From the NCBI GenBank assembly GCA_902561585.1, contig CACEQK010000005.1, forward strand, positions 1-56,270: DNA of 56,270 nt, written 5' to 3'. The notes under the pieces are model-generated. The model did not search any database, was not told the origin of the DNA, and saw nothing but the letters and a program-made list of their open reading frames with translations. The translations under genes were made by a program, and so were the position numbers. The stretch's first letter is position 1. Each line of letters starts with the position of its first letter. Positions 14,819 through 45,083 of this stretch are shown here, piece after piece. This stretch comes from an uncultured Pelagibacteraceae bacterium (GTDB lineage: Bacteria; Pseudomonadota; Alphaproteobacteria; Pelagibacterales; Pelagibacteraceae).

Positions 14819-15340
14819 ATGATTATAACTTGTAATTGTGGTCTAAAGAAATTTTCTCTACCGGATAATTCTATACCAACAACTGGACGAATGGTTCAGT
14901 GTGGTTCTTGTGGACTGAAATGGAAACAATTTCCTGTAAATGAAATTAATAATACTGGGCCAATTGATAACATCAAAAAGATAGCTTCAAATCCTAATCA
15001 AATTAAGTCAAAAAGGCAAAAGGCACAAAAAGTAAAAAAAACTTCTGTTAGAAAACCTAGAGAGATAAATTTATATTCTCCAGAATATCTAGCCAAAAAA
15101 CATGGTATCAAACTAAGTGAGGATGTTAAGCCAGTTTCATCTAAAACCAAAGTCTCCTTTGGATTCTATAATTCTTTATTGTTGTTATTAATTATAATTA
15201 TAATTTTATCTAGAGGATTATATTTTTTTCAAGACTTTGTAGTGCAAAAATTTCCTTTTACAGAATTTTATATAGACTATTTTTTTGAAAGTATAAGAAA
15301 TATGTTTGAAATTTGGAAAAACCTAATTTCTAGTTATTAA
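14819..15340 (+). CDS. Zinc-ribbon (MJ0042-type) single-pass membrane protein, function unknown
   Basis: 173 residues. N-terminal zinc-ribbon resembling the MJ0042 family: cysteines C5, C7 and C28, C31 with GRMVQCGSCGLKW. The first pair is C-X-C rather than the canonical C-X2-C, as if one residue were lost. A basic, low-complexity middle (KSKRQKAQKVKKTSVRKPRE) leads to one hydrophobic segment at about residues 117-137, after which a short tail ends at the stop. Such proteins occur across alphaproteobacteria with no settled role. Its 3' end overlaps the convergent epimerase/methyltransferase gene by 11 bp. Confidence 0.75.
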   Translation: MIITCNCGLKKFSLPDNSIPTTGRMVQCGSCGLKWKQFPVNEINNTGPIDNIKKIASNPNQIKSKRQKAQKVKKTSVRKPREINLYSPEYLAKKHGIKLSEDVKPVSSKTKVSFGFYNSLLLLLIIIIILSRGLYFFQDFVVQKFPFTEFYIDYFFESIRNMFEIWKNLISSY

Positions 15341-17882
15341 TCTCTAATTCTTTAATACTCACAAAATTGTCAGATAAATTTTCATTATTTTTCTTAATGT
15401 CATCATAAAAGTTCCACGCCAAGACTAAAAGAATATTTTTTTTATCTTTAATAAATGATTTATTTTTAATTGGAATTTTTACTCCTGGTATAAATTTATT
15501 ATGTTTCAGTTTATTATCTTCAACAATAAAATCTATTTCATTAGATATTCCAAAAAAATTTAATGCAGTAGTAGCCTTTGCTGGAGCTCCATAACCTATT
15601 ATGATTTTATCTTTACCTTTAAGACTTTTAAGGTTCTTCAAAACATTCTCTTTAATTTTATATATTTTTTCAGCAAATGTTTGATAAGTCTTAAAATTTT
15701 TGATACCAAAAACTTCTTCCTCTTTAAGCATTTTTTTAACACTTTGTTCAATTTTCACTTTTTTATCTTTTTTTATATAAATTCTTATTGAGCCACCATG
15801 AGTATTAATCTTTTCTGACCTAAAAATTTTAGCGTCAAATTGATTAAAAAAATAAACCAAAGATGTTAATGACCAGTAATTATAATGTTCATGATAAATG
15901 TTATCAAAAGTTAAATCCTTAAGTGTATTCATTAAGTATTGAACTTCAATAATTATGGTTCCTTTTTTACTTAATAGACTTAACATGCATTCTGACATTT
16001 CTTTCAGTTTATCTGAATGAGCAAAAACATTTGAAGCTAATATTAAGTCTGCGTTTTTTTTTAACTTTTTAATATTTTTTTTTTCTAAAAAACCATTAAA
16101 AGTTTTAATTTTATTTCTATTAGCAAGTTTTGCTAAATTTTTAGCCGGTTCAATTCCAAGAATATTCTTAAAACCCAAATCTAAAAATGGTTTTAAAGCA
16201 ACACCATCATTACTTCCAATATCTATAATGAGCGATTTTTTTTTATTTAATCTGAATTCCTTAGAATATTTTTTTGCTGCCTCAATAAAATGGTCTCTGA
16301 ACACTCTAGAAGTTGATGATGTGTACAGATAATTAGAAAACATTTTTTTTGGATCGACCGCAACTGATAATTGACAGTTATGACATTTTTCACAATAGTT
16401 AACTTCTAATGGGTAAAGATCACATTTTTCATCTTTCTTGTTAATTAAATTATTTGCTAATGGTTGATACCCTAAAGATATAACTCTTTTAAGATTTGTG
16501 TTTCCACATGATCTACATTCAAATTTATAACACTTTAATAATAAATTTTTCTCTTTTTCATCCACAAATACATGCTTAATAGTATGTGTTATTCCATAAT
16601 TTTCTTGATCTCTTTCCCCTCTTACAAGATTTAAAAAAGTAGTATCTTTTGTGAAAACCATAGTATGAGCAACATTAGGTTTTATAATTGATAATTGTCC
16701 TGCATTAACAACTTGAGTTATTTTTGGAGAGTTTTGATTTAAAATATCTTGATATACCTCAATTATCTGACCTTTGGTAAATAAACATTTTTGTTCTTGT
16801 TGAGGATGATAATGATTGGCTCTGATAGTACCTTTTTTAGAGTTTATCATTCCTATTAAATTAACTGGTTCTGTTAATTCATGGTTACTTATTACTCCTC
16901 GATCATCTTTATATAAGTTTTCTCCATTTTTTACGTATTCTAAATCTTTTATAAATTTTTGCTTTGACCATTTTTGTATCATTTCTTTTATATTTTGATC
17001 TAAATTATAAAGAAACTCAAAACCAGTCTTCAGTAATTTTTTGTTTGATAGTGAAAAACCTAAGTTTGGAACTTCGTCGTTTGTTTCTTTTAAAACTACT
17101 CTTGAATTATGTTTTTTACAAATTTCAGCAACATCTTTTACTGAAAGCGTATCTTTTGTTAAATTAAATGTTTCAAAACTTATATTTTTTTTTTCTTCCA
17201 TGAATTTAAAACATCTTGCCACATCAATTAATGGAACAAGACTTTTAATTTGGCGGCCTCCAGTAAACAGTTTTATAGTACCGTTTTGAGATGCTATTTT
17301 TGAAAATAAATTCGGCATTATATCCATTCTCGTAGAGTCTGTTGAATAACCATAGACTGAACCTAATCTTAAAATTATATAATTTTTTCCAGATTTTTTT
17401 AGTTGATCTTCATTAATTGCTTTTGAACTAGAGTAAGATAAAATTGGTTTATAAGGTTCATTTTCTTTTATATCTTTTTTAACTTGATCAATTCCTTCAT
17501 AAATAACATGTGTAGATGGAAAAATTATTTTACACTTATCATTTATTACATCTAAAATATTTTGTGTACCTTTTTCTCCCACTTCCTTGATTTTTTCATC
17601 TTGTGAGTTATTAGACTCACTCCTAGTCCTAGGAACATCAGTTATTCCTGCTAAATGGTGAACCACATCTGCATCGCTGCAGTGCTTTTTTATTAGGTTT
17701 TTTTCTAAAATGTCTCCTTGAATAAATTGCATATTCCAATTTCTAATTTGGTTTACACGTTCTGATATAAATCTATTGTCAATTATAACAATATTATGAT
17801 GCCAGCTTACTCCAGAATACAATTTACAAAGCTCTGTTCCTATGTAACCAAGCCCCCCAGTGATGACGATTTTTTTTTTCAT
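15330..17882 (-). CDS. SDR sugar epimerase/dehydratase - cupin - C-methyltransferase fusion
   Basis: One uninterrupted 850-residue frame with three modules. (1) Residues 1-about 310: extended SDR fold, NAD(P) motif GGLGYIG at 9-15 and catalytic Tyr150/Lys154 in YSSSK. (2) About 315-440: cupin-like domain with HYHPQQEQ at 357-364, resembling the C-terminal cupin of CapF/WbjC-type reductases or WxcM-like enzymes. (3) About 453-850: NDP-sugar C-methyltransferase with zinc-binding cysteines C456, C459, C497, C500, SAM motif IDIGSNDG (553-560), the His pair in IYHEHYNYWSLTSL (about 664-666), and the C-terminal GYGAPAKATT block. Known families: each module acts on nucleotide sugars; module 3 resembles TcaB9-type C-3 methyltransferases. 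Inferred product: a branched deoxy-sugar nucleotide for a surface glycan. Substrate unknown. Neighbour on the other side is a GT17-type transferase. Confidence 0.85.
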   Translation of the reverse strand: MKKKIVITGGLGYIGTELCKLYSGVSWHHNIVIIDNRFISERVNQIRNWNMQFIQGDILEKNLIKKHCSDADVVHHLAGITDVPRTRSESNNSQDEKIKEVGEKGTQNILDVINDKCKIIFPSTHVIYEGIDQVKKDIKENEPYKPILSYSSSKAINEDQLKKSGKNYIILRLGSVYGYSTDSTRMDIMPNLFSKIASQNGTIKLFTGGRQIKSLVPLIDVARCFKFMEEKKNISFETFNLTKDTLSVKDVAEICKKHNSRVVLKETNDEVPNLGFSLSNKKLLKTGFEFLYNLDQNIKEMIQKWSKQKFIKDLEYVKNGENLYKDDRGVISNHELTEPVNLIGMINSKKGTIRANHYHPQQEQKCLFTKGQIIEVYQDILNQNSPKITQVVNAGQLSIIKPNVAHTMVFTKDTTFLNLVRGERDQENYGITHTIKHVFVDEKEKNLLLKCYKFECRSCGNTNLKRVISLGYQPLANNLINKKDEKCDLYPLEVNYCEKCHNCQLSVAVDPKKMFSNYLYTSSTSRVFRDHFIEAAKKYSKEFRLNKKKSLIIDIGSNDGVALKPFLDLGFKNILGIEPAKNLAKLANRNKIKTFNGFLEKKNIKKLKKNADLILASNVFAHSDKLKEMSECMLSLLSKKGTIIIEVQYLMNTLKDLTFDNIYHEHYNYWSLTSLVYFFNQFDAKIFRSEKINTHGGSIRIYIKKDKKVKIEQSVKKMLKEEEVFGIKNFKTYQTFAEKIYKIKENVLKNLKSLKGKDKIIIGYGAPAKATTALNFFGISNEIDFIVEDNKLKHNKFIPGVKIPIKNKSFIKDKKNILLVLAWNFYDDIKKNNENLSDNFVSIKELEINN

Positions 17883-21256: not shown

Positions 21257-22510
21257 TTAGGCCACAGATGTTGATGATTTATTACCATATGTGATGATTG
21301 GTTCTGACGCACCTTTTACAGTAGCAGCATCGACAGTAACTTTAAGCACATTTTCCATATCTGGCAACTCAAACATTGTTTTTAATAGGATATTTTCAAG
21401 GATTGATCTTAATCCTCTTGCACCAGTTTTTTTTGAAATAGCTTTTTTAGCTATTTCAGAAATTGCTTCATCTTTAAATTCTAGTTCAACTTCTTCAAAC
21501 TCAAATAACCTTTGATATTGTTTTATTAAAGAGTTTTTTGGCTCTTGCAGTATTTTAATAAGAGATTTTTTATCGAGATCATCTAACGTTGCGATAATTG
21601 GCATTCTTCCTATGAACTCTGGGATTAAACCATACTTAATCAAATCTTCTGGCTCTAACATTTTCATTATTTCAGATAGTGGTTGTTCATTATAGTTTTT
21701 AACCTTTGCTCCAAATCCAATAGAGCTTCCTTTTCCTCTACTATCAATTAATTTATCTAAACCAGCAAATGCACCACCACAAATAAACAATATATTTGTC
21801 GTATCAACCTGAAGAAACTCTTGTTGAGGGTGTTTTCTACCTCCTTGAGGTGGAACGCTAGCAACTGTACCTTCCATAATTTTTAATAATGCTTGTTGAA
21901 CACCTTCTCCTGAAACGTCTCTAGTAATAGATGGATTCTCAGATTTTCTACTTATTTTGTCTACTTCATCAATGTAAACAATTCCTCTTTGAGCTTTTTC
22001 CACGTTGTAATCTGCTGCTTGTAATAATTTTAATATAATATTCTCAACATCTTCTCCCACGTATCCTGCTTCAGTTAAAGTGGTAGCATCGGCCATTGTA
22101 AATGGAACATCTAATATTCTAGCTAAAGTTTGGGCTAATAAAGTTTTTCCACAACCAGTAGGACCTACCAATAAAATATTTGATTTTGATAATTCTATAT
22201 CTTTATTATTTTTTGTTTCATGGCTCAATCTTTTGTAATGATTATGAACTGCTACAGATAAAATTTCTTTTGCTAACTTTTGTCCTATCACATAATCATC
22301 TAATACTTTGCATATTTCTTTTGGTGAAGGCACACCATCTTGATGTTTAACAATAGAGCTTTTGTTTTCCTCTTTAATAATGTCCATACAAAGTTCTACA
22401 CATTCATCACATATGAACACTGTGGGACCAGCTATTAATTTTCTAACTTCATGTTGGCTTTTTCCGCAAAACGAACAATATAAAATATTTTTATTATTTT
22501 TTTCTGACAT
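21257..22510 (-). CDS. clpX: ATP-dependent Clp protease ATP-binding subunit ClpX
   Basis: 417-residue AAA+ unfoldase partner of ClpP. N-terminal zinc-binding domain with CSFCGKSQ and CDECVELC; Walker A GPTGCGKT, Walker [11 protein letters not shown], and the sensor region [12 protein letters not shown]. An IGFGAKV stretch near residue 265 corresponds to the IGF loop that docks on ClpP. Located 79 bp downstream of clpP, same strand. Confidence 0.98.
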
Positions 22511-43124: not shown

Positions 43125-43271
43125 CTTTGAATATTTATATTAATAATTCTGACTATCTTTAGGCATTTATAAATTATAATCGTTTATTTAATCATAAAAT
43201 TGTATAAAATGCTTAATAATGACAGTCTTTAAAATGCAAAATTGCAAAAAAACAACAGGAATTCTAATAAA

Positions 43272-45083
43272 ATGGAAAAAAATTTATTTATTGATGCTTC
43301 GCATCCAAATGAAACTCGTATTGTTCTTAAGTCAAATAATTCTATTGAAGAGTACGAATATGAAGATAAAAATAATTTAAACTTTAAAAATAATATTTAT
43401 CTTGCAACAATTAGTAGAGTTGAGCCTTCGCTACAAGCCGCATTTGTTAACTTCGGAAGAGACCGACATGGTTTTTTAGCTTTCAATGACATTCAATCTG
43501 ATTATTATCAATTACCTTCTGAGGATAAGGATAAAATCAGAATTGCTGAAGAAAAGATAAGAGAAGAACTTAAAGATAAAACATTAGACATTAACCAAGA
43601 AAACCTACAGACAGAAAATATTTCTGAAAATAAAGATCAAAAAAATATTAATAGCGAAGATCAGTCAATAGTTGCAGAAAAAAAGCAAGATTATCATGAA
43701 AAGATAAAGACTTCATTAGGTATAAAAAGATACAAAATACAAGAAGTAATTAAACCAGGCCAGGTAATTTTAATACAAGTAATTAAAGAAGAACGAGGTC
43801 AAAAAGGAGCTGCACTCACAACCTTTATATCTCTAGCTGGCAAATATTTAGTTCTCATGCCTAATACTCCTAAAGGTGGAGGCATATCAAGAAAAATTTT
43901 CAATTCCTCCGACCGTCAAAAAATAAGGAAAATTCTAAACGATATTGAAATCCCTAAAAGCATGGGGGTAATTGTAAGAACTGCAGGGGCAAATAAAACA
44001 AAAAATGAAATACAAAAAGATTTTCAAAATACTTTAAAAACCTGGGAGGCAGTGAAAGATAAAGCACTTGAATCAAATGCGCCATCATTAGTTTATGAGG
44101 AAGGAGATATAATAAAAAGAACTTTAAGAGATACCTACGATAATGAAACTAAAAATATTTACATCGAAGGAGCTGAGGCCTACCAAAAAGCAAAAAAGTT
44201 TATGAAAGAACTAATGCCAAAAAATATAAAATATATCAAAAAATATAGAGGTAAAATACCATTGTTTCATGATGCAAATATAGAAAAAGAATTGATAAAT
44301 ATTTATGAACCTACTGTAAAGTTAAAATCAGGCGGATATCTTGTTATAAACCCAACTGAAGCATTAGTATCAATAGATATAAACTCTGGCCAATCAACAA
44401 AAGAAATTAATATTGAAAAAACTGCGTTAAATACAAACTTAGAGGCAGCAGAGGAAATTGCTCGTCAAATAAAATTGAGAGACTTATCTGGTTTAATAGT
44501 CATTGATTTTATAGATATGGTAAATTTTTACAACAGAAGAATAGTTGAAAAAAAAATGAGAGAAAGTATCAGGAAAGATAGAGCTAGAATACAAATTGGA
44601 AAAATAAGCAATTTTGGATTACTTGAAATGACGAGACAAAGATTACGTGAGGGTTCAATAAAATGGGAAACACAACTATCTCTTTCCTCATTTTCACAGA
44701 AGATATTAAAGAAAATTCAACATTTGGCATTTACTGAAAAAGCCAAAGTTATTAATTCCTATATTCCAGAAAAAGCAAAACTATTTATAGAAAATAATTT
44801 ATTAGATGAATTAAAATATTTTCAAAAAAGATATTCTTATGAAGTCAAAATATTTTCGGACCAAAAATTTATTATTCCAGAGTATAAGATTGAATTATTT
44901 AATAAATCAAAGAAATTAATCAACTCCATTGAAAATATAACTTTAAAAATGGAAAGTAAAAAAGAATTCAGTAAATTGTCAAAAGGGAAAAAAGAGAAAA
45001 CTAGATCTAAGGATAAAATTAAAAGAACAAAATTAAAAAAAAAAGTAAGAACTTTATGGGTAAGAAAAAAAAAGAAAATTTAA
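43272..45083 (+). CDS. rne: Ribonuclease E/G family endoribonuclease lacking the Zn-link
   Basis: 603 residues from ATG 43272; an in-frame TTG at 43242 would add 10 residues. S1 RNA-binding domain ([14 protein letters not shown]... ) is split by an acidic Glu/Asn/Lys insertion of about 70 residues, as in other alphaproteobacterial RNase E. 5'-sensor/RNase H-like core is present. Catalytic aspartates: D369 in VSIDINSG and D412 in VIDFIDM, 43 residues apart exactly as D303/D346 of E. coli. After [10 protein letters not shown] (449-458) the zinc-link CPxC is absent and the whole protein has no cysteine. The usual long scaffold tail is reduced to a Lys/Arg-rich end. Divergent from mrcA by 147 bp. 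Confidence 0.93.

Follow-up and report, generated by a model that had tools for sequence, protein, structure and literature searches.

An RNase E gene of the order Pelagibacterales

The window analyzed here is a stretch of 56,270 nucleotides from an uncultured Pelagibacteraceae bacterium (GenBank assembly GCA_902561585.1, contig CACEQK010000005.1), and it carries on its forward strand a gene of the RNase E/G family. The open reading frame begins with an ATG at position 43272, has a stop codon that ends at position 45083, and encodes 603 amino acids. When the frame is delimited mechanically it opens at a TTG at position 43242, ten codons 5′ of this ATG; the start point is common to all five relatives aligned, and three of the five begin with MEKNL or MEKNLY. 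The features discussed below are as follows.

43272..45083, + strand: RNase E gene (rne), 603 amino acids plus stop, no cysteine (open reading frame and profile matches)
43977..43982, + strand: 5′-monophosphate sensor R236-T237, corresponding to E. coli R169-T170 (alignment columns)
44376..44378, + strand: catalytic D369, corresponding to E. coli D303 (D in 60/60 Pelagibacterales and 212/212 other alphaproteobacteria)
44382..44384, + strand: N371, corresponding to E. coli N305 (N in 60/60 Pelagibacterales and 211/212 other alphaproteobacteria)
44505..44507, + strand: catalytic D412, corresponding to E. coli D346 (D in 60/60 Pelagibacterales and 212/212 other alphaproteobacteria)
44640..44681, + strand: shortened metal-free linker, 14 amino acids, residues 457-470 (alignment; relatives have the linker plus a zinc knuckle)
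44664..44666, + strand: W465 (W in 60/60 distinct Pelagibacterales and 0/212 other alphaproteobacteria)
44679..44894, + strand: small domain, residues 470-541 (PF20833, profile positions 13-84 of 86)
44910..45080, + strand: basic tail, residues 547-603 (sequence; a GWW end is present in another family of the order)

The protein matches the family profiles PF10150 (327.9 bits, cut-off 25.5) and TIGR00757 (467.7 bits, cut-off 325.95), and among solved structures its best match is the catalytic domain of E. coli RNase E (2bx2). A preliminary description of this DNA had recognized an RNase E/G with catalytic aspartates; D369 and D412 are present as it stated, together with N371. Of the two equivalog models, the one for RNase E scores higher than the one for RNase G (403 versus 287 bits), and the protein falls below both cut-offs; for the E. 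coli ribonuclease E equivalog (NF008074) the score of 403.2 bits does not reach the threshold of 908. The S1 domain (PF00575) scores 21.3 bits, slightly below its cut-off of 22, and is found in all 27 members scanned at E values up to 0.01. The S1 fold in the structural model of the window protein resembles 1sn8, an S1 domain from E. coli (Z 12.5). Between the S1 and 5′-sensor regions lies a charged, low-complexity insert (43524-43730, + strand, approximately residues 85-153), which differs in length among relatives and in which residues 114-137 are modeled with pLDDT values below 50.

The gene at 43272-45083 is the sole RNase E/G match in the window’s own assembly, which comprises 0.82 Mb in 27 contigs and is 71.6% complete. 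Its closest named relatives belong to the uncultured Pelagibacteraceae AG-349-M05 (87%), AG-337-E15 (78%), and AG-920-L18 (75%), and on this basis we assign the window to Pelagibacterales (SAR11). Among 41 genomes, this one included, 37 contain at least one RNase E/G match and each of these has exactly one over the family cut-off, the match being absent in the other four relatives. Thus, no paralog of the RNase E/G family covers for the type of enzyme found in the window.

The alignment columns of E. coli D303, N305, D346, R169, T170, F57, F67, and K112 are invariant in all 60 distinct Pelagibacterales proteins that we compared. We take D303, N305, and D346 to be the catalytic residues, and R169 and T170 to be the 5′ sensor, of the E. 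coli enzyme. Because these residues are invariant, SAR11 RNase E is predicted to be active and to cut single-stranded RNA with sensing of the 5′ end.

Loss of the Zn-link by deletion

The ten-residue segment that the preliminary description cited as preceding the missing Zn-link starts at residue 449. The same description held that the CPxC segment had been replaced by other residues, and this is where our alignment departs from it. Eleven columns, including the CPxCxGxG knuckle, are deleted between approximately residues 467 and 470 (the exact spot depends on the alignment), and it is the stretch upstream that has changed. Here the residues REGSIKWET align to the pre-knuckle stretch, which reads RPSLLEAST in other alphaproteobacteria and SPSLGESSH in E. 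coli, and the flanks on both sides are in register.

To define how widely this arrangement occurs, we read 68 Pelagibacterales loci, made up of 61 loci, 28 of them named, that yield 60 distinct proteins (L197 encodes the same protein as L021 and was dropped) and seven further genomes that were counted apart. The comparison set of 212 other alphaproteobacterial RNase E proteins derives from 161 of the 282 other genomes of the class with a match, plus 52 named loci, minus one identical protein. Of the remainder of the 282, four gave only a protein that was dropped, G198 keeps CxxC and stands outside the count, and 116 were left unread. Proteins dropped as RNase G-like paralogs or as low-scoring before the 212 were counted are those of L085, which keeps CxxC, L119, which is without it, L120, whose frame ends at the link, and L118 and L276, which were left unjudged at this site. 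Groups were assigned from kinship labels or record titles, independently of the motif.

The Zn-link motif is missing in all 68 of the Pelagibacterales loci. Specifically, CxxC occurs in none of the 60 distinct proteins and none of the seven further genomes, compared with 211 of the 212 other alphaproteobacterial proteins. Likewise, the span from R391 to R425 (E. coli numbering) is 22 residues long in 60/60 Pelagibacterales proteins and 33 residues long in 212/212 others. The preliminary description was therefore right that the Zn-link is gone and the catalytic aspartates are kept, and the same holds across the order, where the two aspartate columns are occupied in 60/60. It had also raised the prospect that most alphaproteobacterial RNase E proteins are without the link; the near-universal CxxC in the comparison set speaks against this, and agrees with the statement, in the accessible part of PMC12510024, that the Zn-link is well conserved across alphaproteobacteria. 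The lone exception among the 212 is L284 (genome G226), which reads CIYS, with the second cysteine changed to serine by a single codon. Either a sequencing error or an independent, incomplete loss of the Zn-link might account for this codon.

Retention of the motif extends to alphaproteobacteria with genomes of approximately 0.8-1.4 Mb (for example G097, G153, G183, and G047). Outside the class it is kept in 25/25 short RNase E/G proteins, which are probably RNase G, with E. coli serving as the single representative of full-length RNase E there. Judged by these alignments, loss of the Zn-link is wider than one protein and belongs to the whole order Pelagibacterales.

A phylogeny was computed with FastTree from E. 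coli columns 1-390, which exclude the linker, using the 60 Pelagibacterales proteins and 153 of the 212 others, with E. coli as the root. All 60 fall into a single clade (SH-like support 0.983). Adjoining it, with support of 0.954, are L069, L102, and L105, all three of which keep the Zn-link, although their placement beside the clade may be influenced by base composition, for which the tree is uncorrected. Since the 60 proteins constitute a single clade on a tree that excludes the linker, the loss is consistent with one ancestral in-frame deletion, which is its simplest account.

A tryptophan motif in the shortened linker

The linker that remains carries a sequence signature of its own. The motif R-L-[RK]-[EQ]-x-x-[IV]-x-W-x-x-x-L-[ST] is present in 60/60 distinct Pelagibacterales proteins and 7/7 further genomes, and in 0/212 of the other alphaproteobacterial proteins. 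Its tryptophan, W465 in the window protein, falls at the column of E. coli S399; tryptophan occurs elsewhere in the linker in ten of the 212. The motif presents an alternating hydrophobic face consisting of I/V463, W465, and L469, and position 467 is occupied by Thr, Ile, Val, Met, Leu, or Ser.

Structure prediction for the window protein gave five models, whose mean pLDDT values range from 80.6 (best) to 65.5 (worst). In the best model, values are approximately 78-80 in the linker and 87-91 in the small domain, and W465 and L469 are each predicted to form single beta-bridges in the monomer. Superposition of the SAR11 monomer model on 2bx2 covers 385 residues at 4.2 Å (Z 32.5), but only up to chain residue 402. 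The model of a control protein that keeps the Zn-link aligns over 445 residues, through the small domain, but only at 14.2 Å. We considered the placement of the small domain in these monomer models as a source of evidence and rejected it, because this placement differs from 2bx2 in the SAR11 protein and in the Zn-link control alike.

Small domain and RNA-binding surfaces

The small domain (PF20833) scores 26.9 bits in the window protein against a cut-off of 26.8, and it is detected in 27/27 proteins scanned at E values up to 0.01 (the window’s and those of 26 of the 28 named loci). Its predicted secondary structure is helix-strand-helix-helix-strand, an order of elements that it shares with the model of the Zn-link control. 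The motif N-x-K-R within this domain is present in 0/60 Pelagibacterales proteins versus 191/212 other alphaproteobacterial proteins. We rejected its loss as a strict partner of Zn-link loss: 21 of the 212 are Zn-link keepers that are also without N-x-K-R, and the motif is likewise missing in two of the three Zn-link keepers closest to Pelagibacterales, so the two losses are not strictly coupled.

Residues of the duplex groove have also eroded. The column of E. coli R3 is basic in 10/60 Pelagibacterales proteins versus 129/153 others, and that of K433 in 7/60 versus 95/153. The R490 column is mostly lysine in SAR11 (49/60), and thus the groove is not wholly lost. Judging from these residues, SAR11 RNase E may be less capable of entering directly at structured RNA.

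Assembly of an RNase E without the Zn-link

In the E. coli enzyme, most of the dimer interface is formed by the DNase I subdomains, dimers are joined by hydrophobic contacts of the small domains, and mutation or deletion of the zinc motif prevents tetramers and substantially lowers activity, as reported in the accessible part of PMC2631609. The reading that we favor, and to which we give nearly an even chance of being correct, is that SAR11 bacteria have a metal-free RNase E in which a linker strand and its tryptophan take over the contact otherwise made through zinc. The in-frame loss of 11 residues removed the CPxCxGxG knuckle, and the residues preceding it carry the fixed motif. With less assurance than for the activity of the enzyme, we suggest that W465 would meet its partner over the two-fold axis, such that the I/V463-W465-L469 face packs at the site where zinc is shared in E. 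coli, although W465 could instead pack within one chain. The protomers of the principal dimer would still be joined by contacts between their DNase I subdomains, and the small domains would maintain the contact between dimers. An assembly of this kind would be independent of zinc. It is somewhat more tentatively that we propose the corresponding evolutionary step, in which a single ancestral deletion of 33 bases converted a metal-bridged RNase E interface to a metal-free tryptophan-strand interface that became fixed order-wide.

The main rival, which has a real if lesser claim to be the true state of affairs, is that a lower oligomer is enough. In that case the tetramer would have been given up, the enzyme would be a dimer mediated by the DNase I subdomains (or a monomer), and W465 would pack the small domain on the large domain of its own chain. 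From E. coli, a minimal peptide of RNase E without the tetramer domain is reported to retain the core catalytic functions (Caruthers 2006), which favors such an arrangement, as does the erosion in Pelagibacterales of N-x-K-R and of the basic residues of the duplex groove, which is shared between partner protomers. The shortness of the tail that carries partner proteins points in the same direction (PMC5436854, accessible part). However, the small domain, which serves in assembly in E. coli, is kept in all 27 proteins scanned and is modeled with the pLDDT values given above. Moreover, an order-wide invariant tryptophan beside the lost interface suggests a selected contact, even if that contact is perhaps intramolecular.

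We also examined rescue by an RNase J-type enzyme (TIGR00649) and set it aside. A match is present in 14 of the 15 genomes tried, exceeding the curated cut-off in nine, and none is found in the window’s incomplete assembly. The four Zn-link keepers among the genomes tried all carry such matches too (one over the cut-off), and therefore the RNase J-type match explains nothing about loss of the Zn-link.

Zinc economy and alternative metal sites

Thrift with zinc in the open ocean might have driven the loss of the Zn-link within a general removal of zinc sites, but we regard this cause as unlikely. It would fit the absence of cysteine from ribosomal proteins L31 (6/6 SAR11 sequences) and L36 (9/9), and a reduced diversity of zinc transport in SAR11 (PMC4771312, accessible part). 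However, three alphaproteobacteria that have the Zn-link possess similarly cysteine-poor forms (L31 with no cysteine in 3/3, L36 with one cysteine in 3/3), and ClpX in the window keeps its four-cysteine finger. Metal uptake is reduced in SAR11, but the accessible part of PMC4771312 names high-affinity zinc uptake as the exception and records znuA in half of 22 genomes. Given the cysteine-poor L31 and L36 of Zn-link keepers and the retained ClpX finger, these changes have no special link to the loss in RNase E. This small set of sequences gives no support to zinc sites having been lost in general; it consists of L31 and L36 in a few genomes, with 9 of 13 L31 loci scored, and of the zinc fingers in the window.

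Several observations on zinc sites were made along the way. L31 and L36 proteins without zinc-binding sets of cysteines (loci L222-L246) occur in SAR11 and in three other small alphaproteobacterial genomes. The ClpX gene (21257-22510, - strand; identity read from the sequence) encodes an intact finger of the form CSFC...CDEC, which shows that this bacterium has not discarded its zinc fingers wholesale. A small protein encoded at 14819-15340 (+ strand) has a zinc-ribbon-like N-terminal start, CxC...CxxC, followed later by a hydrophobic stretch. An open reading frame of 850 amino acids at 15330-17882 (- strand) appears, by eye, to be a fusion of a sugar-nucleotide epimerase and a methyltransferase with a cysteine-rich segment between them.

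The window protein contains no cysteine, where approximately 6.9 would be expected from the cysteine frequency of the window. This had been singled out in the preliminary description, and it is true of the window protein. When residues are counted from the start column, 26 of the 60 distinct proteins of Pelagibacterales have no cysteine and the others have one to four. Yet four of the window’s other 43 open reading frames of at least 150 amino acids likewise encode no cysteine, one of them 724 amino acids long. The absence of cysteine is by itself unremarkable, and it is the fixed deletion of the link that chance does not give.

Protomers might also be bridged by a displaced metal site elsewhere in RNase E, a prospect raised in the preliminary description, but we consider this very improbable. 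No cysteine column reaches 80% among the 60 Pelagibacterales proteins, the window protein has no cysteine to offer, and no histidine column is specific to the order. The columns of E. coli residues 10 and 65 are histidine in 50/60 proteins each, but they are about as commonly histidine in Zn-link keepers (161/212 and 170/212, respectively). Finally, hardly any credence is due to the view that the gene is broken, the alignment faulty, or the region dispensable and drifting under relaxed selection. Although the genome is AT-rich (the G+C fraction of the window is 0.29) and the small domain is divergent, the linker is identical in length in 60/60 proteins, other alphaproteobacteria with genomes of approximately 0.8-1.4 Mb keep CxxC, and the tryptophan motif is fixed in all 67 cases checked, which is not what drift produces.

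Comparison with known enzymes and significance

The SAR11 enzyme has the same domains, catalytic residues, and sensor residues as E. coli RNase E (2bx2). It differs in the absence of CPxCxGxG, in a linker shorter by 11 residues, in a tryptophan in place of S399, in the absence of the long scaffold half, and in the charged insert between S1 and the 5′ sensor. Closest outside the order are other alphaproteobacterial RNase E proteins of the Caulobacter type, with 39-50% identity in the best segment, and the Caulobacter structure 4oxp matches the SAR11 model in the S1 and 5′-sensor fold. Enzymes of this type keep CxxC (with the single exception described above), whereas those of SAR11 are without it, and their GWW end is retained in one Pelagibacterales family. 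Proteobacterial RNase G resembles SAR11 RNase E in being short and without the long scaffold half, but the 25 RNase G-like proteins all keep CxxC. Cyanobacterial RNase E, like that of SAR11, is without one of the two assembly parts. However, the situation is reversed, since according to the accessible part of PMC10989914 the cyanobacterial enzyme has the Zn-link and is without the small domain. Together, the two cases suggest that the Zn-link and the small domain are separately losable.

Short RNase E proteins in Rickettsiales and Pelagibacterales have already been published (PMC5436854, accessible part), and the word zinc is absent from the main text of that paper. Our searches of the open-licence literature, much of it accessible only in part, found no description of Zn-link loss in SAR11 RNase E. 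A clean, order-wide loss of the Zn-link with the catalytic parts intact amounts to a natural experiment on the role of zinc and of the tetramer, and the SAR11 enzyme offers a ready zinc-free RNase E for comparison. If our preferred reading is true, one of the most abundant bacterial orders of the ocean harbors a natural lineage of RNase E whose assembly and function do not need the Zn-link. The loss also bears on the organization of mRNA decay in SAR11, whose degradosome tail is short too.

The C-terminal tail

Approximately 60 residues are left after the small domain in the window protein. The scaffold tail had been described as reduced to a basic end, and basic residues are indeed found at 547-603. 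GWW is the dock for PNPase in alphaproteobacterial RNase E (PMC3376730, accessible part); it is absent from the end of the window protein. Within the last 40 residues of the 60 distinct Pelagibacterales proteins, 24 (the window’s included) have a TLW-type end, ten have GWW, and 26 have neither, one of these 26 (L161) being cut by a contig end. The TLW-type end, at 45051-45080 (+ strand) in the window and shared with 23 other distinct relatives, is possibly a changed PNPase dock.
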